Source: Diplonema papillatum
Taxonomy: Eukaryota > Euglenozoa > Diplonemea > Diplonemida > Diplonemidae
Length of the DNA stretch: 64,000 nucleotides
Assembly (NCBI GenBank): GCA_030068145.1
Contig: JAPJBO010000788.1
Location: forward strand, 42,775-106,774
Direction of reading: 5' to 3'
Shown: positions 9,461 through 64,000 of the stretch, in pieces
How positions within the stretch are numbered: the stretch's first letter is position 1
How the letters are laid out: every line of letters starts with the position of its first letter
Notes under the pieces: model-generated
Database searches by the model: none
What the model was told of the DNA's origin: nothing
Seen by the model: only the letters and a program-made list of their open reading frames with translations
Program-made: the position numbers and the translations under genes

Positions 9461-12400
9461 ATGGAGCCGCTGCCGACAGAAGCGCCGGTTGCCGCGCATC
9501 ACATGGACCCGATGGACGGGGGCAGCCCGCGCCCCGGGCACGAGGCCGAAGAGTCGGACCGTGAGCCGGTGTCGAAGAAGCGGGCGACGCCTCCGGCTGA
9601 GCTCGCCTCGCCCGATTCCCCGCAGATGCATGTGATGAGCACGGCGTCTGCCGCCGCGTCGCCCGTCCACGTGTACAAATACAACTTGGACGACTTGCTC
9701 GCCGCTGACGCGAAGTCCTACGGCCTGTTGACCAGTCCCCGGTCGAAGGAAGCATGCCGCATGCACGGCATTGTCCCGAACGAATTGTACCCGCGCATGA
9801 TACACACCTTCGCCGCATCCAAGTATGCATTCACAACAATCCTGGGTCAAACCTAGCAAATGCAACGAAGACACACACGTAATCGCACCGATACTACCAC
9901 AGATACGAAATGCATACCGGTATACGATACCTCAAAAAAAACCCTTTCGACGGTGGTCACCGATGATCTTGAAGCCCCGGGACGCCAAGCGAACTTCTGC
10001 TCTAAAAAGGGCCCCGCCGCCAGAATACTGTCTTCAAAACAGTCTAAAAAGCAGACCCTTCTCCCATCCCACAGGAACGAGCTGCCTCAGGTGACACAGC
10101 GGAAGTACGAGCACTTTGAGAGGAGGCGTATGCAGAAGCTGCAGTTTTTGGTCGGGGAACGCCGCAAACTAGGTCGGGCGCACTTCGACACGATGGCAGG
10201 CGGCGTCTCCCGGCGTCGGAGTCCGAGCGTTGAACTCGACCTCGAGACGGCTATCGACTGCCTGACCTCTGAGGAACGGAGGAAGGTATGCGCGCAGCCA
10301 TCACCCGGCCTTGCTTTCTTTAGTACCAGCACATCTTACTGTTGCCCTGCCCGTGTATTGTGCAGGCCAAAATGTCGCAGGCAGCGTGTTTCGGTGCGCT
10401 TGATGCGCGACCGGCTTCCGACCCGCAAACCGTCGTGATTTTCGGCCCGGTAGCGGTTGGCACCGTGAGTGATTCCGTTGTGTGACTCTGTACCTGTGGG
10501 TACAGAGTCACATGGAAACGGTCGCGGTTTCCGTCATTGTCGGTACAGTCGCACTCACTGAGGCACTTTCGGTTGCTGTCGGGACTGTCAACGTGGTCGT
10601 TTCCGTTTCCGTGGCAGTGGGCACGGTTAAGCTTGTCGTGTACGTTTCTGTCAGCCCAAGACACCTGTGCAGATCGCCGACGAGATCGCAGAGGCGGAGA
10701 AGAAGCTGCACCGCCAGTACGCGGCGTCCGAGACCCAGCGCCGGCGAAAGCAGCTGGCGAAGGAGCAGAAAGCCGCGCTGGAAGCGAAGGAGACGGAGCG
10801 GGTGCGGCTCATCGAAGAGAAGCGCCGCGACGACGAAGCGCGCCGGCTGCTGAAAATCGAGCAGGCCGCCGCCCGCGCCGAGTCGATCCGGCAGCGGAAG
10901 CAGAACCTCGACCGCACCCGGGCCCTGCGCGTCGAAGAGGAGCTCCAGGACAAAGCGGAGAAGGTGATCAGCTTCGAGAGGGAACGCCTCAAGCAGCAAG
11001 TCGAGCGCCAGGCTGCGGCAGAGGTGTGCATCCATTCGTTCCTGAAAATCCCGATCCCAGTTGTGTCGCGCGTGAAAGGTTGAGCGAAGCCAACCGAAAG
11101 AAAAAATAGGGAGTACTGGTGCAGGAGAACCCCTCTCCCATTTTCATTTCTGTTCATTCTATGTGTAACGTCTCCTTCGTTCTCCTTCGTCGGAGCATCT
11201 CCTTCGTTAATACACGAAGCGAGCATCAGGAGTCTACAAAGATGAACTGCTGTTTTTTATCAGGGCCTGACAGAGGACCTGCGGTCGCCATGTAGATATA
11301 CTTCAACAAAGGGCTGACCGACTGTAATGCAGCGACCGACTGGTTGACGTCAGTCGAAAACGGTGACATTGAGCAACTCGTGAAGAAGGGGGTTGCGTAG
11401 TTGTTGTTACCGCATACGACACGTCGGACAGAACGGCCGATCCATGGATAGGTCTGCGTTCTTGAGTGAAACCCCGACAAAATCGGTACCAAGAAGACAG
11501 ACAGTCACCTACTGCGGCACCATACTTAGGGTATGTGGACAATGGCTGAAACCGCCAATGACCAACAACCAAGGTACCCACCGATCCTCTTACCTCATGT
11601 AACCACCACTCTTACGACACTCAGAGCACAAAGGATATCTTCCCATAACGACGAAGGTCACCCGGAGAATTTAAAACCCCGGAGTCTCAAGCGAACTGAA
11701 AACAAAACCTCCTTCAGGCAAAGGCGCAGCAAGAGGTGGGCAAGCTCGAAAGGCACAGACGAGAGGTCGAGGAAATGCTAGACGCCGGCTGGGAGAAAGC
11801 AAAGCTTACCGAACTGTCGCAAGACAACGTGCAGACGCTATCGGAAAGACGCAGGCGCGAATACCAGGTATCGCCTGCTGTCTTTTTCTGAACAAGCACC
11901 CGCTTTGTGTAGGAATACCCGAGAAGGCTGCCAGATGCAAAATCTCATAAGGGTAGATAAACTCCAAACTTTGTTTCTTCGTTGCGCGCGTTCGAAATTT
12001 TTTGATCTTGGCTGGTTGGTCGGCCCGCCGCAACCCGCCGGAACCCTCTGAATGGCACTTCCAACCCGCCGGAACCCGCCGGAACCCTCTGGATAGCATT
12101 TTCAACCCGCCGGAACCCGCCGGAACCCTCTGAATGGCATTGTCAACCCGCCGGAACCATCCGGAACCCTCCGAATGGCATTTCCAACCCGCCGGAACCC
12201 GCCGGAACCCTCCGAATGGCATTTCCAACCCGCCGGAACCCGCCGGAACCCTCCGAATGGCATCGCCAACCCGCCGGAACCCGCCGGAACCCTCTGAATG
12301 GCATTTCCAACCCGCCGGAACCCGCCGGAACCCTCCGAATGGCATCGCCGGAACCCGCCGGAACCCTCCGAATGGCATTTCCAACCCGCCGGAACCCGCC

Positions 12401-14361
12401 GGAACCCTCTGAATGGCATCGCCAACCCGCCGGAACCCGCCGGAACCCTCTGAATGGCATCGCCAACCCGCCGGAACCCTCTGAATGGCATCGCCAACCC
12501 GCCGGAACCCGCCGGAACCCTCTGAATGGCATCGCCAACCCGCCGGAACCCTCTGAATGGCATCGCCAACCCGCCGGAACCCGCCGGAACCCTCTGAATG
12601 GCATTGCCAACCCGCCGGAACCCGCCGGAACCCTCTGAATGGCATTCCAACCCGCCGGAACCCTCCGAATGGCATCGCCAACCCGCCGGAACCCGCCGGA
12701 ACCCTCTGAATGGCATCGCCAACCCGCCGGAACCCTCTGAATGGCATCCAACCCGCCGGAACCCGCCGGAACCCTCCGAATGGCATCGCCAACCCGCCGG
12801 AACCCGCCGGAACCCTCTGAATGCCACTTCCAACCCGCCGGAACCCGCCGGAACCCTCTGAAAGCGTTTTCGCACGGCGGGGACGCCTTGCAGCCTTCGT
12901 GTGCGCGCTGCACCCAAAGTTTTCTTTGAGTCTTTTCTTTTCTCTTTTGCGCGCGTGCGTTCGCTCCGGCGGCAAGGCAAAAACTAAGAAACAAAGTCTT
13001 GAGTTTATCTACCCTAACGAGGAAATGTGTGCTCGCAGCTCACCCGGAGCACAGCACTAAATCTTGGGCGTAAGCGTGCAGCAAAGCCCACTTTGTAGTC
13101 GTATTGCTTCTCGCCCTCCAAATATGCACCGGACGGTCGCTGTAGTAGTACGGAGTAGTGAGGCTACAGGAACCCTGGAGAGGGTGGTTGCACCCTCACT
13201 CACTCGTCCCTCTCAGACGAGCCACGAGCAGCTGCCTGGCAAACTAGACTCACACTTGATGATTGAGCAGAGAAGACCGGAGTGGTGTCGTGCGAGCACA
13301 TTTTTGCATTTATTCTCCTCCCTCAGCGTGAGGTTAAATGACCCACCTTTTACCAACCAGGAGCGCACTGAAGACCGAGCGAGGAAACAGGAAGCAGCCC
13401 GACAGCGTGTGAAGCAGATGGAGGAGATGCGGAAGGTTGGGATCGCTCAGAAGACGCAGGATAAGCTCGACCGACAAGAAAAGGCGTTCCGGATGCAGAA
13501 GGAGCAGCAGGTTCTACAGCTTACGGAGAAGAGCATCCGCCACGAGGAAGCGCAAGAAGCCGTCGATCGCATGCGCCGCAGGGAAGCCTATGAGCTTGAG
13601 CTCAAGCAGCGCGACGTGCAACGCAAACTGGACCGAATCGCGTATGTGGCGCTTTTGATTAACCTCACGGTTCTCCTGTCTGATGTGATCCCCGTCTACG
13701 AGGGCTCTTTCACTGTTGCTGCTTCTGCTCCTGCTTACAAACACCTGCTTTGTAGGAAATACTTGAGGAGACTGCCAGTTGTGAAATCTCAAAGAGGTCA
13801 ATGTGCTGTAGCTCACCCGAAACGCGGGTAAATCTGGGTTTCGTGACGCGTTCAACAAAAGGGTTTCTCGCTAGGCAGTTTCGAGTCCGCTCCCCCGGCT
13901 GCTTCGCCAGTTGCATCGGGTAGGGGCTGAAGAAGTTCCTCTCCATTCGTGGGGCATCTTTATTTGGAATCCCGCTCCATTCGTGGCATCAATACATAGA
14001 AGACGAGGCATTTGCCTTCAAGGGGGGACCGTAGTTGCCCCCCGGCTGGACGCCAGCTGCATTGGGTAGGGGCTTAAGAATCTTTATTTAGAATCCCGTC
14101 CATTCGTGGGGCGTCAGTACATAGAACGACGAGGCATTTGCCTTTGAGGGGGGACCGTAGTTGCCCCTCAGCTGGAGGAAAGGGCGTCCTGCAGAAACAT
14201 AAAAACACAGTGAGCATGAAGAAGCGCGGTGGCTCGCGCAGCAGCACAAGAAGCAACGCATCGAAGCTCTCCGTCTGCAGGAAAATCGGCCGGCGACGCC
14301 GCGCAACAAGCACACGAACGCCGAGTGGGTTTCGTCGACAAAACGGTCTGCGATGACTTGA
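9461..14361 (+). CDS. CCDC177-like coiled-coil protein (7 exons)
   Basis: Join(9461..9822, 10075..10285, 10366..10464, 10655..11023, 11718..11867, 13361..13641, 14211..14361). All phases agree and give 540 aa ending TKRSAMT with TGA. Exon 4 could instead begin at 10673, same frame. The N-terminal block YNLDDLLAAD, then LLTSPRSKEACRMHGIVPNE, then a basic KYEHFERRRMQKL segment match the CCDC177 family as I recall it. The rest is Arg/Glu/Lys/Gln-rich coiled coil. The family is typical of ciliated eukaryotes, which fits the PFR gene next door; an axonemal role is inference. Introns are 252, 80, 190, 694, 1493 and 569 bp and carry repeats. Donors are GTATGC, GTATGC, GTGAGT, GTGTGC, GTATCG and GTATGT. 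Confidence 0.8.
10481..10512. repeat. perfect hairpin inside CCDC177-like intron 3
   Basis: Fourteen-base arms (TGTGACTCTGTACC and its exact complement) are separated by a 4-base loop, TGTG. It lies 16 bp after donor GTGAGT in a 190-bp intron, so the donor would sit close to a stable RNA stem. Confidence 0.85.
12023..12862 (+). repeat. minisatellite filling CCDC177-like intron 5
   Basis: About 840 bp of head-to-tail units made of one or two AACCCGCCGG boxes plus AACCCTCTGAATGGCATCGCC, with units of about 31 or 41 bp depending on box number. Variants include TCTGAATGG/TCCGAATGG and CATCGCC/CATTTCC. The array is GC-rich and stop-poor in several frames on both strands, which creates long false ORFs. 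Confidence 0.95.
13045..13115 (+). repeat. repeat R1, 3' fragment
   Basis: AAATCTTGGGCGTAAGCGTG, then CAAAGCCCACTTTGTAGTCGTATTGCTTC, a diverged version of the R1 3' half. It lies in CCDC177-like intron 5. Confidence 0.65.
13730..13860 (+). repeat. repeat R1 copy in CCDC177-like intron 6
   Basis: AACACCTGCTTTGTAGGAAA, then TACTTGAGGAGACTGCCAG, then GGTAAATCTGGGTTTCGTG and GCGTTCAACAAAAG. It is colinear with copies at 34190, 41228 and 50365. Confidence 0.85.
13897..14185 (+). repeat. repeat R3, two short units in CCDC177-like intron 6
   Basis: The pattern CATTGGGTAGGGGCTTAAG, TCCATTCGTGGGGC, ACATAGAAGACGAGGCATTT, GGGGGGACCGTAGTTGCCCC occurs twice. The same unit is amplified in PFR intron 1 (17700-18500). 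Confidence 0.85.
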
Positions 14362-54705: not shown

Positions 54706-54712
54706 CATACAC

Positions 54713-55537
54713 ATGGACGCCATCTTGCAGGGGTCGGGTAGGGATGGCTGCTTCTGGCGACCAGTCGGGAGGGAAGCGCGCGACGCCACGCCGGTCGTCG
54801 CATTAAATGCGGACGTGACGCGGGAGACCGCGTTGGCGTTGTTGAAGAAGTGCGGCGAGGCCGGGGGCGGTGTTGTTCTTGGTGGAAGACGTCTTCTGCT
54901 GCGGGCGCGCGGCTCGGGGATGCTGGCGCGCGTGCGGGCGGCTGCTGGTGAGCACGCGGCGCCCCCGCTCGAAACGAAACTGCGGTACCTCGTGTCCGGT
55001 GCCAGGGCGCGAGAACACGAGGCCGACGTCGAGATGCTGCTCAGGCTCGCTGGCTGGGCTGCGACGGTCACGACATCCTTCGTGAGAAGCGGCATGCGGA
55101 CGTGCGTGGTGACGGGGGATGGCGGCCCGCCGTTTCGGGTGATCGAAAGGGAAGGGTCGCCCTTCATTGTCGTCAACGACTGCGACAAGGGCGAGATGCT
55201 GCGGCCGCGTTCCAAGCGCCTCGCCTCCTCCCTCCCGATGGCGCCCGGCCAGAGGCGGCGCATGAAGCTGCCCGCCGCCGAAGTGCACACGGATCCGGAG
55301 CCGGCTCCGTCCAACAAGCGGAAGCACGAGGAGGTGGCGCAGCCGGCGGAAGCGGGACAGTCGCTAATCCGGCGAGCAGTGGCCGGTGTGGTCGAGATGC
55401 TGTCCCCGCCGCTCCAGCGTCTGAAGGAGCCGGTCGAGGGTGAGAAGGCCGATCACCGGCACGAGCTGACCGATGGAGTGCGGGCTCCAGTGGAGTTTGA
55501 ATGCGGCGATTGTCAGAAGACAATCGCCGCATTTTGA
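54713..55537 (+). pseudogene. LINE-B ORF1 fragment
   Basis: Codes for the same 270 residues as LINE-C ORF1 from MDAILQGSGRDGCFWRP to ECGDCQKTI with only about 7 changes (for example Lys to Arg, Tyr to Cys, Pro to Leu). It then runs into the junction and stops at TGA (IAAF). The ATG at 54713 arises from the truncation point and is unlikely to be a natural start. Confidence 0.88.
55500..55533. repeat. perfect palindrome at the LINE-B recombination junction
   Basis: Arms AATGCGGCGATTGTC and GACAATCGCCGCATT, loop AGAA. In LINE-C the same site has only the inner 7-bp arms (GATTGTC AGAA GACAATC) followed by CAAAAGG, so the outer 8 bp of the right arm were created in LINE-B. Confidence 0.95.
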
Positions 55538-58500
55538 CCGGGTTCCGCAGGGTATCGTTCTCAGTCTTGCAGAGGAGATGGGTCTCGACGCGCGCATCTT
55601 GCGCCCCTTGCGCGCCATGTACGGCGGCATGAAGCGACGGTTCAAGCTGCCGCTCGGCGTGGGCTCCGAGTTCGAGGTGACAAATGGCATTCTGCAAGGC
55701 TGCCCGCTGTCGGTCATACTGATCAACGCGCTATTGTCGGTAGTGCTCCGCGCGGTTTCGGTGCGGGTGCCGGAGGTGTCTTCGGAGTCGTTGGCGGATG
55801 ACGCCACGCTCCTTGCGCCGGCGGAAGCCGAGCTGCAGCAGGCGGTCGACATCGTCGCGCGGTTCTGTGCCCTGACCGGGATGCGCCTCAACATGTCGAA
55901 AACCGTGGCAATGGGTATCCGTGCGGGCTCGACGCAGCAGCGCAGGCGGCGACCGTACGCCAGCGCGGTGAAGGTGGGCGGCGAGGCCATAGTGACGGCG
56001 ACGTCTGCGAAGATCCTCGGGGTGCGAACGAGTGTGGAGAGCGTCCGAGCGAGTCGGGCCAACGATGCGCGTCTGAGCGCACATGACGGTCTGATTGACA
56101 GGCTGAGTACCTCGAAGCTTCCGTTCGATGTCCGCTGCGAGGTGGCGAGTTCGAACGTTCTCAGCAGTGTCCTTGCGGGGTGCTCCTACGAGACGTACAC
56201 GCAGACGCGCCTGAAGGGGCTCCGGACGCGGGTCGTAAGGGGCGCTTTTGGGAGCAGGCAGCCGTCGAGAAGCGTGACGGCGGTGCTGTCGATCCTGGCG
56301 AAGGGTCACCGTCTTGATCCGATGATTGCTCGGCCGTACAGGATTCTGTGCTCGTTTTTCGACGCGTGCGAGAGGCTCCCCCGCGTGTATGCCCGCATGC
56401 TGAACATCGCCCGGCTTTACAGCCGGCACGGTGTGTTGTTGCCGGAGGCGCGCCTAGGTCCTGTCGGGATCGCCATCTCTGACGGTTTCACGGTCGCGGG
56501 CATCGGTTACGAAGGTCGCGATTTTGCGACCGCGGCGCTCGAGGGCCGCCGGCTTCTCGACATGGAGAGGGGCGAGAGGCACCACGCCATCCGGGCGCGG
56601 CTACGGCAGACTACCTGGACGCAGCTTGCGAGGCAACGACCGTCTTACAACGGTGTGCAGGCAGGGGTGGACTGCAGGCGTACGAACGAGCTGCGCCTGG
56701 CGACGGCTGACGCTGGCGAGAAACGTGCACTGGCGGTGATCCTGTCCGGGGGTGTGTTTCTCGCAGCGCGGTGGGGACGGAATGCGCGTGCGAACGGAGG
56801 GGCGGCCGGGTCGGACGGGTCGCCGAGCTCCTCGGCGTCCGTGTCGTCGACCGCCTCTGATACGACAGGCAGCTTTGACGAGCACGCCTCCGAATCCTCC
56901 TCTTCGGAACCTCAGCGTCCGCCGCTGGACCGCGGCTGCAGGGACTGCGACCGAGGCGTCCAGGACACAGCGGATCACCTGTGGTGGGAGTGCCCCGCCT
57001 ACGACGAGATCCGCGGCCGTCCTTGCTTCGCCGAACTCCTGCGGGCGGACCGGGCGAGGTGGCCGTCTTGCACGCGTGTGCATGGGGTAATTGTCGAAGG
57101 AATGCGGGTGGAGGTCGCGGCCCTTCACCGCCTCATGGCGGCGGTGTACACTGCACGCGTGGAGGCGGAGCGACGCCGCCTCTCCGCGGTGCAACCGATG
57201 CACCCCTGGCACGCAGCTGCGCCGCTGCCGGCGGTGCAACACCTGTTCAACTTCGACCGCCTTCCGGATGAGCCGCCGAGATGGCCGTACGGCGGCCGTG
57301 CGATGCGGGCGCTCAAGGGCTGGCTGTCGGCACTGAGGTGGACCGACGCGGGCGAGGTGTCGTGCGTCGAGCTGGCAGTGGACTTCGAGGTCCACACCGG
57401 GGTCGACGTCCCTGCCCCCCCGGGAATACGAAGGCTCGCCGCCAACCAGAGGGGGAAGACCCTCTGGACGATGCTGTCGACATTGTGCCGCCTGTGCCGA
57501 GACCTGCAGCTGCCGTCGCCGTTGCCTGCCGAGCGGAAGGTCCGGGTGGGCTCGATGAGGACCCTGGGGGCGCCGATGCTGTGGGGGGGATTGACACCTC
57601 GCCCACGCTTCGCCGGGGGCGAGGAGACGCACGGGGTGCTGGAGGCGAGCTTTCCGCGGGCAGCTGCCGGGGACGGGAAGAACTGGGGCGGGGACGTGTT
57701 CCCGCAGTACGACGCGGCGCGGCGGGCACAGCGTTCGCTGCGCTGGGACGTGCCCACCCCTCTGCCGCAACGCCCGCGCCTTCCCGTGCTTGTACCGGCT
57801 GCGCAGGCGGACCCTCTGCTCCGCACGCAGTCGGTCTGCGATGCCTGCGCAAAGCAGAAGTGCGCGGTGTGCACTGGCATGCGAAGAAACTACAGCCTTG
57901 TAGTTGACCAGTGCTGCCAGGTGCACCACCGCCCGGACGACGGCCTGCGCATTCAATGCTGCCGGGCGCATCGGCTGACGCGATGCGGGACCTGCCCGAA
58001 CGCCGACGCGTGCTGCGGACGGGGGCATCACAGGGGTGGTGCTGGCCGCGACAGCAGCAGTGGCGACGGGGGTGGCGGTGGTCATGGCGGCCGCGGCCGT
58101 GGCCGCGGCCGCGGCGGCCGGGGCGGCGGAGACGACAGTGGCGGAGACGGTGGCGGCGGCCGCGGCACTGGTCGCGGCCGCGCACGCGGCGGCGCACGCG
58201 GTGGCGGTCGCGGCGGCGGCGGCGGTGGCGGTCGCGGCGAGAGCGACGGCCTCACAGGCCGGAAGCGGCGCGCGCCGTCCCCACCGGGGACACCTACCAG
58301 CCGTGGCCGGAGAAGGCGGACGACGAAATCGCCCCCGAAGCGCGCCCCCCCGCCAGCAGGCAGGAAGCGACCCGCGCCTTGCACCCCCACGACCTCTCCC
58401 GCAGCCGCGCTGCGCGCACGACGACGACGCGCCCGATCTCGGCGACGACGGCACTGGCCTCGCCGGCCCGAACACACCGCGCCCACCCGGCCCCGCCCGG

Positions 58501-58852: not shown

Positions 58853-58961
58853 TCCAACGATTTAAAAGCTACAGTTTCTGTACTTTATTGGTTTGACACA
58901 TTGTTCTGCAGAGCTCTGCAAAGGTCTGCAAAGTTGTGAAAAGTAGGAACACATCACGGCG

Positions 58962-61037
58962 ATGGCGGCGCTTTCGGCGGCGCCATCGTCGATGCTCGAC
59001 CGCCTCGGAGAAGCAGCGGAGCGGGCCAGCCGGGCAGCAGCGGCGGCTCGAAGCCAGGAGGAGCGAGGGGTGGCGCTGACGCTCCTGGAGGCGGCTATCA
59101 GCCTCCTGGAGGCGGAGCAGCACGAGACGAGCCAGGGGGAACCGGCGCTGTCGCAAGGACGGCCGAAGTACCAAGGCGAGGATCGTGAAGGGGCACCGCA
59201 ACAGCAACAACAGCAACAGCAACAGCAACCGCAACAGCAACAACAGCAACAGCGACCGCACCAGCAACAACAGCAACAGCAGCAGCAACAGCAACCGCAC
59301 CAGCAGCAACAGCAACAACAGCAACAGCAACCGCACCAGCAACAGCAGCGACAGCCACAACAACAACGGCAACCGCGGCAACAGGCACAACAGCAACCAC
59401 AACAACAGCAGCGACAGCAACAGAGGCAACCGCAACAGCAACAACAGCAGCAGCAACAGCACCAGCAACCGCAACAGCAGCAACAACAGCCACAGCAGCA
59501 ACAGCAACCGCAACAGCAACGGCGGAACCGACCGCAACAACAAGAGCAACCGCAGCAGCGGCAACATCAGCAGTGGGTAGACGTCGTCAGACGTAAGGCG
59601 ACCGTGTGCGGCGTGCACAGTTTCGACTGGAACGTGCCGATCCTCGAGTCGTGCTCATTCGAGGCGAAGAAGGAGGGGCTCTGGGTCGCACCCAGCGTCG
59701 ATGAGGCCGAGACGGCGATGGGCGTGGCGGTCGATGCTGCGGCGCTGGCGACAGAGGAGGTTCGGTACGCGGTGTTGTGCCGACAGCCGTTCGAGAAGAG
59801 CGAGGCGCGCCACGTCCTCATGGAAACAGGCGTGGTGCAGCGGATGCACCTGTGGACGCACGGGGACGTTCGGCAGGCCGGGAAGGTAGGGAAGGTCCGG
59901 CAGGCGGCGACGGACGGCGAACAGAAGCCCGGCGCGGCCACGGCGGTGCTCGTCCTCACCGTGGCACGCAAGCACGCGACGGCAGAGACGTGGGCATGCG
60001 TGGAGAAGGACCCGCACGCGGCGATGACGCGTCTCTGCCGCCGGGCGGTGAAGGCGACTTCGGCGCAGACGCGCCTCGAAGCGGCCTCCATGTGGGGCGT
60101 GACGTCGCAGCAGGGCCGCCGAGAGCTCCTGGTTCGCGTACCTGCGGGACACGTGGACGCCATCCTGCAGGGGTCGGGTAGGGATGGCTGCTTCTGGCGA
60201 CCAGTCGGGAAGGAAGCGCGCGACGCCACGCCGGTCGTCGCATTAAATGCGGACGTGACGCGGGAGACCGCGTTGGCGTTGTTGAAGAAGTGCGGCGAGG
60301 CCGGGGGCGGTGTCGTTCTTGGTGGAAGACGTCTTCTGCTGCGGGCGCGCGGCTCCGGGATGCTGGCGCGCGTGCGGGCGGCTGCTGGTGAGCACGCGGC
60401 GCCCCCGCTCGAAACGAAACTGCGGTACCTCGTGTCCGGTGCCAGGGCGCGAGAACACGAGGCCGACGTCGAGATGCTGCTCAGGCTCGCTGGCTGGGCT
60501 GCGACGGTCACGACATCCTTCGTGAGAAGCGGCATGCGGACGTGCGTGGTGACGGGGGATGGCGGCCCGCCGTTTCGGGTGATCGAAAGGGAAGGGTCGC
60601 CCTTCATTGTCGTCAACGACTACGACAAGGGCGAGATGCCGCGGCCGCGTTCCAAGCGCCTCGCCTCCTCCCTCCCGACGACGCCCGGCCAGAGGCGGCG
60701 CATGAAGCTGCCCGCCGCCGAAGTGCACACGGATCCGGAGCCGGCTCCGACCAACAAGCGGAAGCACGAGGAGGTGGCGCAGCCGGCGGAAGCGGGACAG
60801 TCGCTAATCCGGCGAGCTGTGGCCGGTGTGGTCGAGATGCTGTCCCCGCCGCGCCAGCGTCTGAAGGAGCCGGTCGAGGGTGAGAAGGCCGATCACCGGC
60901 ACGAGCTGACCGATGGAGTGCGGGCTCCAGTGGAGTTTGAATGCGGCGATTGTCAGAAGACAATCCAAAAGGGCCGCATGCAGAGGAGGTGCGAAGAGTG
61001 CGGCGCCAGCGTGTGTGTCACGTGCTCGCGCGCCTGA
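58962..61037 (+). CDS. LINE-C ORF1, poly-Gln nucleic-acid-binding-type protein
   Basis: 691 aa. An Ala-rich helical start (MAALSAAPSSMLDRLGEAAE), then about 120 residues of Gln-rich sequence (59194-59560, mixed CAA/CAG with Pro, His and Arg), then a globular region (VDVVRRKATVCGVHSFDWNV; LVRVPAGHVDAILQGSGRDG; VIEREGSPFIVVND), a basic linker (PRPRSKRL, NKRKHEE) and a C-terminal CxxC-type cluster, CGDC..RRCEECGASVCVTCSR, probably zinc-binding. In non-LTR elements ORF1 proteins coat the element RNA; that role is by analogy, as I find no classical RRM or CCHC knuckle. ATG 58962 follows CACGGCG. The stop TGA (61035) is in the same frame as ORF2. Confidence 0.88.
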   Translation: MAALSAAPSSMLDRLGEAAERASRAAAAARSQEERGVALTLLEAAISLLEAEQHETSQGEPALSQGRPKYQGEDREGAPQQQQQQQQQQPQQQQQQQRPHQQQQQQQQQQQPHQQQQQQQQQQPHQQQQRQPQQQRQPRQQAQQQPQQQQRQQQRQPQQQQQQQQQHQQPQQQQQQPQQQQQPQQQRRNRPQQQEQPQQRQHQQWVDVVRRKATVCGVHSFDWNVPILESCSFEAKKEGLWVAPSVDEAETAMGVAVDAAALATEEVRYAVLCRQPFEKSEARHVLMETGVVQRMHLWTHGDVRQAGKVGKVRQAATDGEQKPGAATAVLVLTVARKHATAETWACVEKDPHAAMTRLCRRAVKATSAQTRLEAASMWGVTSQQGRRELLVRVPAGHVDAILQGSGRDGCFWRPVGKEARDATPVVALNADVTRETALALLKKCGEAGGGVVLGGRRLLLRARGSGMLARVRAAAGEHAAPPLETKLRYLVSGARAREHEADVEMLLRLAGWAATVTTSFVRSGMRTCVVTGDGGPPFRVIEREGSPFIVVNDYDKGEMPRPRSKRLASSLPTTPGQRRRMKLPAAEVHTDPEPAPTNKRKHEEVAQPAEAGQSLIRRAVAGVVEMLSPPRQRLKEPVEGEKADHRHELTDGVRAPVEFECGDCQKTIQKGRMQRRCEECGASVCVTCSRA
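61035..61037 (+). promoter_or_regulatory. in-frame UGA between ORF1 and ORF2, candidate read-through stop
   Basis: Codons read TCA..GCC TGA CTG CCG. It is the only stop in this frame from 58962 to 64000. UGA followed by C is the leakiest class of stop context known in eukaryotes. No ATG lies in the next 18 sense codons. Confidence 0.55.
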
Positions 61038-64000
61038 CTGCCGTCAAGCCACGACGCCCGCGCGGACGGCGATGCTGCGGGAGCCCGCTTGATGCGATGT
61101 GGGGATGTGCATCCCAACCCTGGCCCCGGGCGCCGAACGCTCGCCTCGACCGCCGCGGCGGCTTTCCGCCGCGGACGTCGCCGACGGCCGGCCGGCACAG
61201 CCCGGTACGTTGCCGCGCACGTGCTGCATCGCGCGCGGGACGTGGGTTCCCGGGTTGCCTCGCGGCGTGAGCGTGTTGAATGTGCGTGGCTACCGTCGAA
61301 GCACGACGCCCTTGAGTATGCGTACGCCGCGGGGGAACGGCTCTTGAGGTGCGGGGACGTCCACCCGAACCCTGGTCCCCCGCGCGATCTCACTCTTGCT
61401 GCAGTTAATGTTGGCTCGCTGGCCCTGCACATTGACGAGGTGCGTGCGATGGCGCCCGCAGACGCGATTGCGGTGCTGGAGACGTCGATGAGCGCGTTGC
61501 AGCAGACGCAGGCGGCGGATTATCTCGCGAGACCGTGCGCCGTCGACGGGTCGAGGTGGAAGACGCTGTGGGGGCCGCCGCAACCGCCGAAGCGCAGCAA
61601 GCACTGTCCGCACGGAAACCCGCATTCCGGGCAGAAGGGGGGCGGAGTCGTTGTGCTTGCCAGGCAGCCGGGGGTGGCCCACCTGCTGCCCAACGAATCG
61701 CTGCAGGAAGTGCGCAACCGGGTCATCCACACGATGATCGCGACGGGGGTCGGACGGATGTTCGTGCACTTTTTTGCCGTCTACGCCCCATCGGGGAACA
61801 CGGCAGCAGCGTCCCGGGAGCGGCTCCTGCAGACGGTCCTCTTCGAGGCGCAGGCCATAGTGGGGCAGGCCCCGGCGGTCGTGATGGGCGACTTCAACAC
61901 GGACCTTGAGCGATCGCCGGCGCTTCGGCATGCCCTCAGCAACGGGTGGACGGACGCAGCGCAGCTGCAGGCGGCGTGCGAAGGAGGACGACCGCCCAAC
62001 ACCTACACGGGCACGAACACGTCCGGCACGCGCATCGACTACGCCCTGATGAACCGCGCGGCCGCGTCCGCCTTTGTTGCATGCGAGACGATCGGGGTAG
62101 GGAGCGTGAGGGGCCACCGCTGCGTCCGGATTCGACTCGCGGTGCAGGCGTTCGAACAGCAGACATGGAGGTTCAACGTGCCGCGAGCGATACCCGTGAA
62201 GCCGGCAGGTAGGGTCGTCGAGGTCCCGAGGCTGGATGCCGTGTGCGCCGCCGCCCGCGAGGGGGACGTCGAAGGGGCGTGGATGGCGCTCTCCGCAATG
62301 TGCGAGCAGTACCTGCTAGACCGCAGCGGGATGCCTGCCTGTGAGAGACGTGCGCACACCGGCCGCGGTAACTCGGAGCTGAAGATGACTCGCGTTGCGG
62401 CGAGGAGTACGCCGGACCGGGGCGTGGCGTGCGAGACGGAGCTGAGGCACGGGAATGCGATCCGGCGTCTGGAGCACTACGTCTACCAGCGAGCTCGCCT
62501 AGAAGCGTCCGGACCATTCCAGGTGCCCCAAGAACTCCGCTTGTGCTGGCTGCGCTGTCTCGCCGTGATCCGTGGCGGCGGGGTCGGCGAGCCGCCCCCC
62601 TCCGACCCGCCGAGCGCAGAGGTCGCCCGCGTTTACTTGCACGACGTACGACTGCGCAGTGCGAGATTCAACGCGGCTGCGGCGAGGGTACGGAAGAGGC
62701 AGCAACACGAGAGGCAGCTGACGATGTTTGGGACGGATCGCCGGGCTCTTGTGACGATGCTGCGGGGGGGTCCGGGGCAGGCGGCCGATGCGGTGCGGAC
62801 AGCGGACGGGCGGCTCACCGCCAACGTCGAGGAGATGGACGAGGTGCTGCAGGAGGCGTGGGACCCGATCCTGCGCATGTACGGGGAAGGACGCCCAGAG
62901 CCCGAGTACGAGGTGTTCCGCAGGGCCTTCGAGGGTTTTATTCCCCGCCGCCAGATGGACCTGCGGGATGTGACCGGGAGGGAGCTACGGGATGTGCTCA
63001 ACAAGCGGAAGAAGAAGACTACGGCGTGTGGGGTGGACGGCTGGCGCTTGGACGAGCTGAAGGCCCTGCCCGACGAGCTGCTGGACGGGTTCGCGACGCT
63101 CTTCAATCTGGTAGAGGAGCGAGGGGAGTGGCCGAAGGGTATGCTGACGTCGTTGGTGTCGCTCATCCCAAAGACCGACGACACCTCGCCAACGAACCTG
63201 CGGCCAATCACCGTGACGAGCTGCGTCTATCGGTTGTGGGCCTGCAGGCGTTTGCAAGACGTCATGGAGTGGCAGGACGGCTGGATTCTTCCGTCGCAGC
63301 ACGGCTTCCGCAGAGGGCATCGGACGGACGACGTCCTCATGGAGCTGACGACGCTGATCGAGGAGACGCTGCTCGACGAGTCGAAGTCGCTGTACATGGT
63401 CGCACTCGATTTCGCGAAGTGCTTCGACCGGGTACCGCAGGGGATCGTTCTCCGGCTCGCCGAAGAGATGGGCCTCGACGCGCGCATCCTGCGCCCCCTG
63501 CGCGCCATGTACCGTGGGATGAAGCGCCGGTTTAAGCTGCCGCTGGGCGTAGGGTCCGAGTTTGAGGTCACCAACGGTATCTTGCAGGGGTGCCCACTTT
63601 CGGTGATCCTCATCAACGCCTTGCTGTCGATTGTGCTCCGAGCGGTGTCGGCGCGCGTACCGGAGGTTTCGTCGGAGTCGCTGGCGGATGATGCCACGCT
63701 CTTCGCGTCCGTGGAGTCCGAGCTGCAGCAGGCGGTCGACGTCATCGCACAGTTCTGCGCCCTGACAGGGATGCGGCTGAACATGACGAAGACACTGGCG
63801 ATGGGGATCCCCGCGGGCACGGTGCGGCAGCGTCGGCGGCGGCCCTATACGAGCGTGCTGGCAGTCGGCGACGAGACGATACCGACAGCGACGGCGGCGA
63901 AGATCCTCGGTGTGCGTACGAGTGTCGCGAGCGTTCAGGCGGAACGTACCAACGACGCGCGTCTGAGGGCCCAAAACGCATTGCTGGACAGGCTGAGCAC
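61038..64000 (+). CDS. LINE-C ORF2: tandem 2A-like motifs, APE endonuclease, reverse transcriptase (3' partial)
   Basis: Same frame as ORF1, open for 987 codons from the TGA to the window edge. First 2A-like LMRCGDVHPNPGP (ends 61127), second LLRCGDVHPNPGP (ends 61379). The APE-type endonuclease (about 61390-62160) shows VNVGSL, the catalytic Glu in VLETS, MGDFNTDL (61884-61907), RIDYAL (62031) and a final His in SVRGHRC (62115), where the usual Asp of SDH is Gly. RT (about 62990-63830): ACGVDGWRLDELK, LIPKTDDTSPTNLRPITVTS, QHGFRRGHRTDD, ALDFAKCFDRVP (catalytic Asp 63408), LQGCPLSVILINAL and SLADDATL (catalytic Asp pair 63687-63692). The enzyme nicks target DNA and primes cDNA synthesis there. 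The first in-frame ATG (61092) lies only 10 codons before the first motif's D, so it gives a very short leader; translation by read-through of TGA seems more sensible. Confidence 0.9.
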   Translation, partial: MPSSHDARADGDAAGARLMRCGDVHPNPGPGRRTLASTAAAAFRRGRRRRPAGTARYVAAHVLHRARDVGSRVASRRERVECAWLPSKHDALEYAYAAGERLLRCGDVHPNPGPPRDLTLAAVNVGSLALHIDEVRAMAPADAIAVLETSMSALQQTQAADYLARPCAVDGSRWKTLWGPPQPPKRSKHCPHGNPHSGQKGGGVVVLARQPGVAHLLPNESLQEVRNRVIHTMIATGVGRMFVHFFAVYAPSGNTAAASRERLLQTVLFEAQAIVGQAPAVVMGDFNTDLERSPALRHALSNGWTDAAQLQAACEGGRPPNTYTGTNTSGTRIDYALMNRAAASAFVACETIGVGSVRGHRCVRIRLAVQAFEQQTWRFNVPRAIPVKPAGRVVEVPRLDAVCAAAREGDVEGAWMALSAMCEQYLLDRSGMPACERRAHTGRGNSELKMTRVAARSTPDRGVACETELRHGNAIRRLEHYVYQRARLEASGPFQVPQELRLCWLRCLAVIRGGGVGEPPPSDPPSAEVARVYLHDVRLRSARFNAAAARVRKRQQHERQLTMFGTDRRALVTMLRGGPGQAADAVRTADGRLTANVEEMDEVLQEAWDPILRMYGEGRPEPEYEVFRRAFEGFIPRRQMDLRDVTGRELRDVLNKRKKKTTACGVDGWRLDELKALPDELLDGFATLFNLVEERGEWPKGMLTSLVSLIPKTDDTSPTNLRPITVTSCVYRLWACRRLQDVMEWQDGWILPSQHGFRRGHRTDDVLMELTTLIEETLLDESKSLYMVALDFAKCFDRVPQGIVLRLAEEMGLDARILRPLRAMYRGMKRRFKLPLGVGSEFEVTNGILQGCPLSVILINALLSIVLRAVSARVPEVSSESLADDATLFASVESELQQAVDVIAQFCALTGMRLNMTKTLAMGIPAGTVRQRRRRPYTSVLAVGDETIPTATAAKILGVRTSVASVQAERTNDARLRAQNALLDRLS
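61092..61127 (+). other. 2A-like ribosome-skipping motif, copy 1
   Basis: Codes MRCGDVHPNPGP; fits the 2A consensus D(V/I)ExNPGP with His for Glu, a variant known in 2A-bearing LINEs. Predicted break between Gly (61122-61124) and Pro (61125-61127), 29 codons after the TGA. Confidence 0.8.
61344..61379 (+). other. 2A-like ribosome-skipping motif, copy 2
   Basis: Codes LRCGDVHPNPGP immediately before the endonuclease. Predicted break after Gly 61374-61376. The 84-residue piece between the two breaks has 17 Arg. Surroundings AAGxRLxRCGDVHPNPGP and R-x-TLA match copy 1, so the module was duplicated. Confidence 0.8.

Follow-up and report, generated by a model that had tools for sequence, protein, structure and literature searches.

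Results

Organization of the element

The stretch of DNA analyzed here (hereafter the window) comprises 64,000 nucleotides of the Diplonema papillatum genome (contig JAPJBO010000788.1, forward strand; C788:42775-106774 in our numbering) and carries a long interspersed nuclear element (LINE) whose two open reading frames (ORFs) share one frame and are separated by a single TGA. The genome searched amounts to 271 Mb; all of the sequence evidence comes from that single genome, and most LINE families are represented by one copy each. A frame scan from the ATG at 58962 bore out the preliminary description of this locus, in which one TGA at 61035 (TGA C) was followed by an open frame to the end of the window: no other stop occurs up to 63998, and the two other forward frames contain 34 and 12 stops per 986 codons over 61038-63998. 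ORF2 contains both an endonuclease and a reverse transcriptase domain (Pfam), as in LINEs of the apurinic/apyrimidinic endonuclease (APE) type. The solved proteins nearest to ORF2 are LINE-1 ORF2p and R2-type proteins, with LINE-1 ORF2p as the top chain for the reverse transcriptase domain (E 3.3e-18). ORF2 extends beyond the window. Of 20 copies read from the same family (F1), seven have an ORF2 of 1874-1887 codons with a terminal TAG, and in the remaining 13 it is shorter, broken, or cut by the limits of the stretch. ORF1 matched no Pfam family at E 0.001, and its Cys-rich C-terminus gave zinc-finger matches below the threshold only (best, IBR, E 0.015). A tRNA scan of the window found none.

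The element encodes two identical 2A-like motifs, GDVHPNPGP. The unit that runs from the TGA through LPSSHDA to NPGP and the TGG-LPSKHDA...NPGP unit at 61287-61379 are diverged duplicates: their local alignment score is 36, whereas 500 shuffles gave at most 20. Because the TGA of unit 1 is aligned with the TGG of unit 2, the stop and the Trp codon hold the same place in the two copies of one module; Trp is possibly the ancestral codon. The first in-frame ATG behind the TGA is at 61092 and leaves 11 residues before the skipping Pro, exactly as described previously. From this it had been argued that the nascent chain would be too short for a 2A peptide, an argument that holds for motif 1 but not for motif 2, which had been overlooked; it is limited to the former because the second identical motif lies downstream.

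Table 1. Features of the F1 element in the window (positions are those of the window)
Feature	Position	Strand	Evidence or remark
Spliced-leader-like exon AACGATTTAAAAGC...TTTATTG	58856..58890	+	Identical string at the 5' end of copies L009, L010, and L025
ORF1, 691 codons, N-terminal part Q-rich	58962..61034	+	
Cys-rich, zinc-finger-like C-terminus of ORF1, CGDC...CEECGASVCVTCSRA	60942..61034	+	Sequence reading; Cys-rich end also in family F5
ORF1 stop TGA, context GCC TGA CTG	61035..61037	+	40/40 scored F1 copies; 12/12 families with the layout
In-frame open spacer LPSSHDARADGDAAGARLMRC	61038..61100	+	Variants in 40 copies; pN/pS 0.31 versus F5
Sole in-frame ATG upstream of 2A-like motif 1	61092..61094	+	Not kept in F5
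2A-like motif 1, GDVHPNPGP, His replacing the consensus Glu	61101..61127	+	0 variants in 40 copies
TGG (Trp) in duplicate unit 2, aligned to the TGA of unit 1	61287..61289	+	Alignment of the units
2A-like motif 2, GDVHPNPGP	61353..61379	+	
APE-type endonuclease domain of ORF2, Exo_endo_phos	61407..62081	+	PF03372, E 1.9e-15
Reverse transcriptase domain of ORF2, RVT_1	63165..63845	+	PF00078, E 1.7e-24

Conservation of the TGA among F1 copies and recurrence in twelve families

The preliminary description had named a survey of the genomic copies as a test, with sense codons at the stop, or frameshifts and stops behind it, in other copies as the outcome that would refute readthrough. We scored 40 F1 copies out of 98 first-look candidates. 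These copies are dispersed in the genome, the 3' flanks after ORF2 being unlike one another among the seven copies shown, and they represent 21 haplotypes that are 96-100% alike. All 40 have TGA CTG followed by an open frame over 61038-61092; neither a sense codon at the stop nor a frameshift or further stop in that interval was found in any of them. The spacer at 61038-61100 has one nonsynonymous and no synonymous variant in the 40 copies, and the 93 bases of 61035-61127 have one variant, whereas seven were expected from the flanks (P 0.007, a rough value as the copies are related). The alignment of the TGA with the TGG of the duplicate unit, by which Trp may be the ancestral codon, could suggest that an originally undivided ORF was recently hit by a point mutation, or that the stop is due to chance; this explanation is ruled out by the 40 copies without a sense codon and by the stop in 11 further families described below. 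A unit-1 sequence with TGG replacing TGA was likewise absent among the first-listed places of 178 pattern matches.

A motif scan for GD[VIM][HQDE]PNPGP gave 525 encoding places, compared with none in the reversed control, and the junctions of further families were read from these places plus two protein searches. The layout recurs in 12 families, namely, F1, F5, and ten families of a second clade (A, B, C, D, E, G, I, J, K, and L). ORF1 stops with TGA in all 12, always in frame 0 with the 2A-like motif, and the spacer between the two is open over 17-99 codons. F5, in which the region from the 2A to the endonuclease is about 49% identical to that of F1, has the junction Cys-rich end-TGA-CTG-LPSHHDA...LRLLRCGDVHPNPGP. 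In the second clade, ORF1, TGA, and spacer are followed by GDIHPNPGP, GDVHPNPGP, or GDIHPHPGP and then by the endonuclease. The UGA, the frame, and the peptide behind the stop are thus conserved in twelve LINE families.

Several loci stand outside these counts or enter them with a limit. Of 18 loci, three truncated or degraded copies (L050, L054, and L058) were excluded from the junction reading. Seven others (L049, L051, L052, L056, L057, L061, and L062) have no TGA shortly before the 2A and were counted as lacking the layout or not assigned; L061, with one TGA 338 codons upstream of the motif, was not assigned. The TGA persists in two damaged copies, L064 of F5 and L065 of F1; L064 and L074 are the same place. 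Since L070-L081 were chosen by a pattern requiring TGA or TGG, only L053, L064, and L066 are unbiased for F5. Family F3 (L069), a degraded relative found by the same pattern, is not among the 12.

Sequence evidence for probable translation past the stop

The spacers of the 12 families contain no stop in 530 codons of frame 0, whereas the two alternative frames together have 31 in 1060 codons (p 3e-6); the contrast persists when thinned to 8 families (p 5e-5), and here, as in the other thinned test, one member each of the close pairs J/K and I/L was kept. The ratio of nonsynonymous to synonymous differences per site (pN/pS) in the spacer was 0.31-0.66 in all eight family pairs; for comparison, it was 0.00-0.90 in the ORF1 tail (8 pairs) and 0.38-0.78 in the 50 codons past the motif (3 pairs). 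Fisher tests on rounded counts, applied to seven of the eight pairs, gave p values of 0.0004 for F1/F5, 0.0004 for B/C, 0.004 for A/C, 0.002 for I/L, and 0.00007 for E/G. The aligned spacers contain single gaps of 24, 21, 3, and 3 bases, each a multiple of three, and the spacer peptide of F1 and F5 is conserved from the first codon past the stop (LPS.HDA...). Sequence comparison therefore finds what is expected of programmed readthrough: a stop kept across divergent relatives, an open frame downstream, and selection at the protein level.

The same junctions bear on termination and reinitiation, in which ribosomes would restart at the AUG at 61092 in F1 or at a CUG beside the stop, the 2A being incidental. 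This mode of expression is known for SART1 and has been proposed for LINE-1 (PMC5972666); F1 has its AUG 18 codons past the stop, a CUG directly follows the UGA in F1 and F5, and the first AUG of family D, at codon 36, is just ahead of the endonuclease core. By contrast, in 8 of the 12 families the interval running from the TGA through the motif contains no AUG, a CUG right behind the stop is confined to F1 and F5, and reinitiation would explain neither the conserved F1/F5 peptide, which begins at the first codon, nor the fact that frame 0 and UGA, of which it needs neither, hold in all 12 families. The first AUG after the TGA is at codon 178 in F5 and at codon 63 in C, and A has none within 166 codons; as these positions are inside or beyond the start of the endonuclease, initiation at an AUG would cost the endonuclease its N-terminus in the three families. 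We consider reinitiation an unlikely explanation.

The stop codons themselves also differ between the two ORFs. In 11 of the families (all but B), each represented by one copy (seven for F1), ORF2 terminates in TAG in seven, TAA in three, and TGA in one; the end of family K was taken from a copy of 1391 codons, whereas other K copies have 1401. TGA at the end of ORF1 in 11/11 families versus 1/11 at the end of ORF2 gave a Fisher p of 3.4e-5 (thinned, 8 versus 8, p 0.0014). An ordinary ORF1 terminator offers no reason for such a contrast between TGA and TAG or TAA. The preliminary description had coupled UGA readthrough with 2A activity. Its first half is strengthened by the exclusive use of TGA, the constant frame 0, the lack of an AUG in 8 of 12 families, and the different ORF2 terminator in 10 of 11, and the predicted readthrough is well supported by the sequences; the 2A half is weaker, given the His in place of Glu and the HPHPGP form in families I, J, K, and L.

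Spliced-leader-like 5' end

The 5' end of the element is AACGATTTAAAAGCTACAGTTTCTGTACTTTATTG at 58856, a string that we take to be a diplonemid spliced leader. Among the 20 long F1 stretches (L009-L028), the full string is confined to the window copy (L009), L010, and L025, which have three different upstream flanks; the remaining 17 lack it. Because LINE copies with differing flanks begin with a spliced-leader-like exon, a trans-spliced RNA apparently served as the template for retrotransposition; trans-splicing of the element RNA thus seems to have preceded its reverse transcription. In the window, this exon adjoins the 3' end of a preceding LINE copy.

This 5' end raises the alternative that ORF2 is translated from an mRNA of its own, produced by spliced-leader trans-splicing, or from a cis-spliced form without the UGA. 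D. papillatum, the assembly of which is described as about 280 Mb with about 2500 retrotransposon-type gene models, processes its genes by spliced-leader trans-splicing (PMC10161547), in keeping with such a route. A separate mRNA, however, would require neither frame 0 nor UGA, would lack a start AUG ahead of the endonuclease core in F5, A, and C, and would leave the protein-like evolution of the spacer behind the stop without a cause. These observations make the alternative improbable.

Decoding of UGA in the host

A further alternative is that UGA is a sense codon, either through genome-wide reassignment or as selenocysteine. Two HSP70 ORFs (L082/L083), however, end in VEEVD-TGA, showing that UGA is a true terminator in this host, and HSP90 ends in MEEVD-TAA; stop usage was readable for these HSP70 and HSP90 genes only, too few for a rate. 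Among 83 HSP70 matches, 74 have no internal stop and nine have one or two. An internal TGA occurs in six of these nine (on C56, C587, C507, and C1215, three of them being near-identical tandem copies on C1215), which could be taken to favor a sense UGA, and is absent from 77 of the 83. These six may be pseudogenes, contain introns, or carry further leaky stops. Taken together, the HSP70 genes make a genome-wide reassignment of UGA unlikely. The 1679 codons of the element within the window include a single TGA. No Rfam match at the gathering score, including the selenocysteine insertion sequence (SECIS), was found in five loci (L011, L018, L010, L066, and L063), of which L066 and L063 stop short of the 3' ends of their elements.

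The N-domain of the host eRF1 (L067, C455:12778-13146) reads TATSIKS...KLAV in alignment with human TASNIKS...RLSV, and thus has Thr, Ser, and Ala at human Ser60, Asn61, and Ser70, respectively. The region of positions 60, 61, and 70 is tied to stop-codon recognition. Another match to the eRF1 Pfam families (L068) looks like pelota and was not taken as eRF1. These unusual residues would suit a sense UGA, as would the trypanosomatid Blastocrithidia, in which UGA is read as Trp and an eRF1 Ser70Gly change has been associated with UGA readthrough (PMC12153298). Set against the terminators above, they leave a sense UGA highly improbable. It is possible, judging from the eRF1 sequence, that a general weakness of the host release factor on UGA is a further source of leakiness.

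Variation of the 2A-like motifs

In families I, J, K, and L (L086-L089), the motif is HPHPGP, with His also replacing Asn, and is perhaps an inactive or altered 2A. Because the TGA and the frame are retained in these families, readthrough seems to be independent of a perfect 2A. The corresponding motif of another LINE group is GDIEPNPGP in a truncated copy (L050) and GDIHPNPGP in L049 and L051, an alternation which suggests that His is tolerated in the 2A-like motif; whether the His variant has skipping activity is uncertain. A LINE group that includes L049, L051, L052, L057, and L062 has two successive 2A-like units, the first of which is decayed in some copies of the L049 group (GDVQRHPGP and GDVPRHPGP) and consensus-like in others (GDVERNPGP).

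Other features of the window and genome

A chimeric LINE at 54709-56110 joins an F1-type ORF1 part (98.5% identity to 60148-60964) to a downstream reverse transcriptase part of another family (79.4% identity to 63422-63999); the junction region and the TGA are absent from it. At about 12000-12900, a minisatellite-like stretch has several open frames, and one of its strands codes for repeats of the GGFRRVPAG type. Elsewhere in the genome, a LINE family (L092, C165:110065-111000) has an open frame of about 2000 amino acids in which the endonuclease region is immediately preceded by an AlkB-like 2OG-Fe(II) oxygenase domain (PF13532, E 3.3e-14).

Discussion

The conservation of the junction is best explained, in our view, by the TGA being a maintained leaky stop: programmed UGA readthrough probably sets the dose of ORF2, and separation of the proteins would fall to the 2A-like peptide. 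Most ribosomes would terminate at the UGA and yield the ORF1 protein, whereas a minority would decode it as an amino acid and remain in frame, translating first one or two 2A-like motifs and then ORF2 with its endonuclease and reverse transcriptase. The inserted residue would be Trp, delivered by a near-cognate tRNA, as suggested by near-cognate decoding together with the TGG that unit 2 has at this place. The 2A-like peptide would then probably free the chain on the ORF1 side while ORF2 is still being made.

A number of observations weigh against this reading. Three of the pairs (F1/F5, C/D, and E/G) have saturated synonymous sites; the spacer Fisher test was not significant for A/B (0.07) and J/K (0.27); and a frame-blind third-position test was weak, with p < 0.05 in only two of six pairs. 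The families share ancestry, and their counts are consequently not independent. The ORF2 of family D itself terminates in TGA. No significant RNA fold was found behind the stop in F1, F5, and F3 (z +1.27, +0.78, and +0.19), the 3' context of the stop varies by family (CTG, GTC, GGC, AAC, AAG, CGT, CCC, and AGC), with TGA CTG common to F1 and F5, and the GAA found upstream of the stop in yeast elements is absent from both. Family H (L091), of the second clade, shows no stop over the 400 bases that were read, and the frame is open for at least 1014 bases upstream of the 2A-like motif in L049, L051, L052, L056, and L061; as 12 families have the layout but H and other 2A-bearing LINEs do not, it is common in this genome without being universal. 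The motif of 2A and 2A-like sequences is given as D(V/I)ExNPGP (PMC4981915), from which all 12 families depart with His for Glu, and 2A sequences with point changes in the consensus have been judged probably inactive (PMC11512398). Finally, the junction of Tca2, an element with an equivalent UGA layout, was reported not to direct readthrough in yeast on its own (PMC2194720), and for Tca2 the signal of the downstream ORF did not change when extra stops were placed ahead of the UGA.

Each half of the arrangement has relatives. Readthrough of an in-frame stop for gag-pol expression is established in retroviruses and has been described for long terminal repeat (LTR) elements (PMC10085805). The fission-yeast elements Tj1, Tcry1, and Tosmo1-3 and Candida Tca2 likewise have an in-frame UGA between their structural and enzyme ORFs (PMC10085805, PMC2194720), and the fission-yeast gag-stop-pol group conserves GAA TGA CTA/CTG, so that its TGA is followed by CTA or CTG as in F1 and F5 (PMC10085805). 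Those are, however, LTR elements, the Pol of the fission-yeast ones including a protease, whereas the elements studied here are APE-endonuclease LINEs with a 2A-like motif.

The 2A peptide of L1Tc is N-terminal, and the host of L1Tc is also a euglenozoan. In L1Tc of Trypanosoma cruzi, as in APE-type elements of other species, a 2A-like peptide is in frame with LINE proteins (PMC4981915, PMC5972666, PMC12846837), and the presence of 2A in LINEs is thus established. Unlike in those elements, the 2A here is placed behind another ORF and a stop, has His for Glu, and occurs in two copies in F1 and F5. SART1 and LINE-1 resemble the present elements in having two ORFs per mRNA; in SART1 the stop and restart sites overlap, and reinitiation has been proposed for LINE-1 (PMC5972666), whereas the ORFs described here share a frame and are joined by a mostly AUG-free region. 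Picornaviruses with several 2A(NPGP) have successive motifs about 50-150 amino acids apart, as here, but within one polyprotein without an intervening stop (PMC11512398). No LINE with an ORF1-UGA-2A-ORF2 arrangement was found among the titles and abstract openings of the PubMed Central matches listed, and an earlier description is possible. What appears to be new is the joining of stop readthrough and 2A in LINEs, each part being already known separately.

We tentatively extend the proposal further. A two-step cassette, in which a leaky UGA sets the dose and 2A-like StopGo separates the products, could conceivably be the usual way of expressing ORF2 in whole euglenozoan LINE clades; it may exploit an eRF1 (Thr60, Ser61, and Ala70) that is intrinsically weak on UGA, with the elements marking ORF1 with UGA and avoiding UGA at the true end. 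This wider claim is possible but doubtful at present.

How LINEs make little ORF2 and much ORF1 from one RNA is an old question, and the usual answer has been reinitiation. A dozen LINE families in one genome point instead to stop readthrough of the retroviral kind, in which the 2A-like peptide could replace the missing protease. The use of UGA at the leaky site versus mostly UAG or UAA at the final site provides a contrast within one genome that may reveal how the release factor handles UGA, with a parallel in Blastocrithidia, where eRF1 changes accompanied the reassignment of UGA (PMC12153298).

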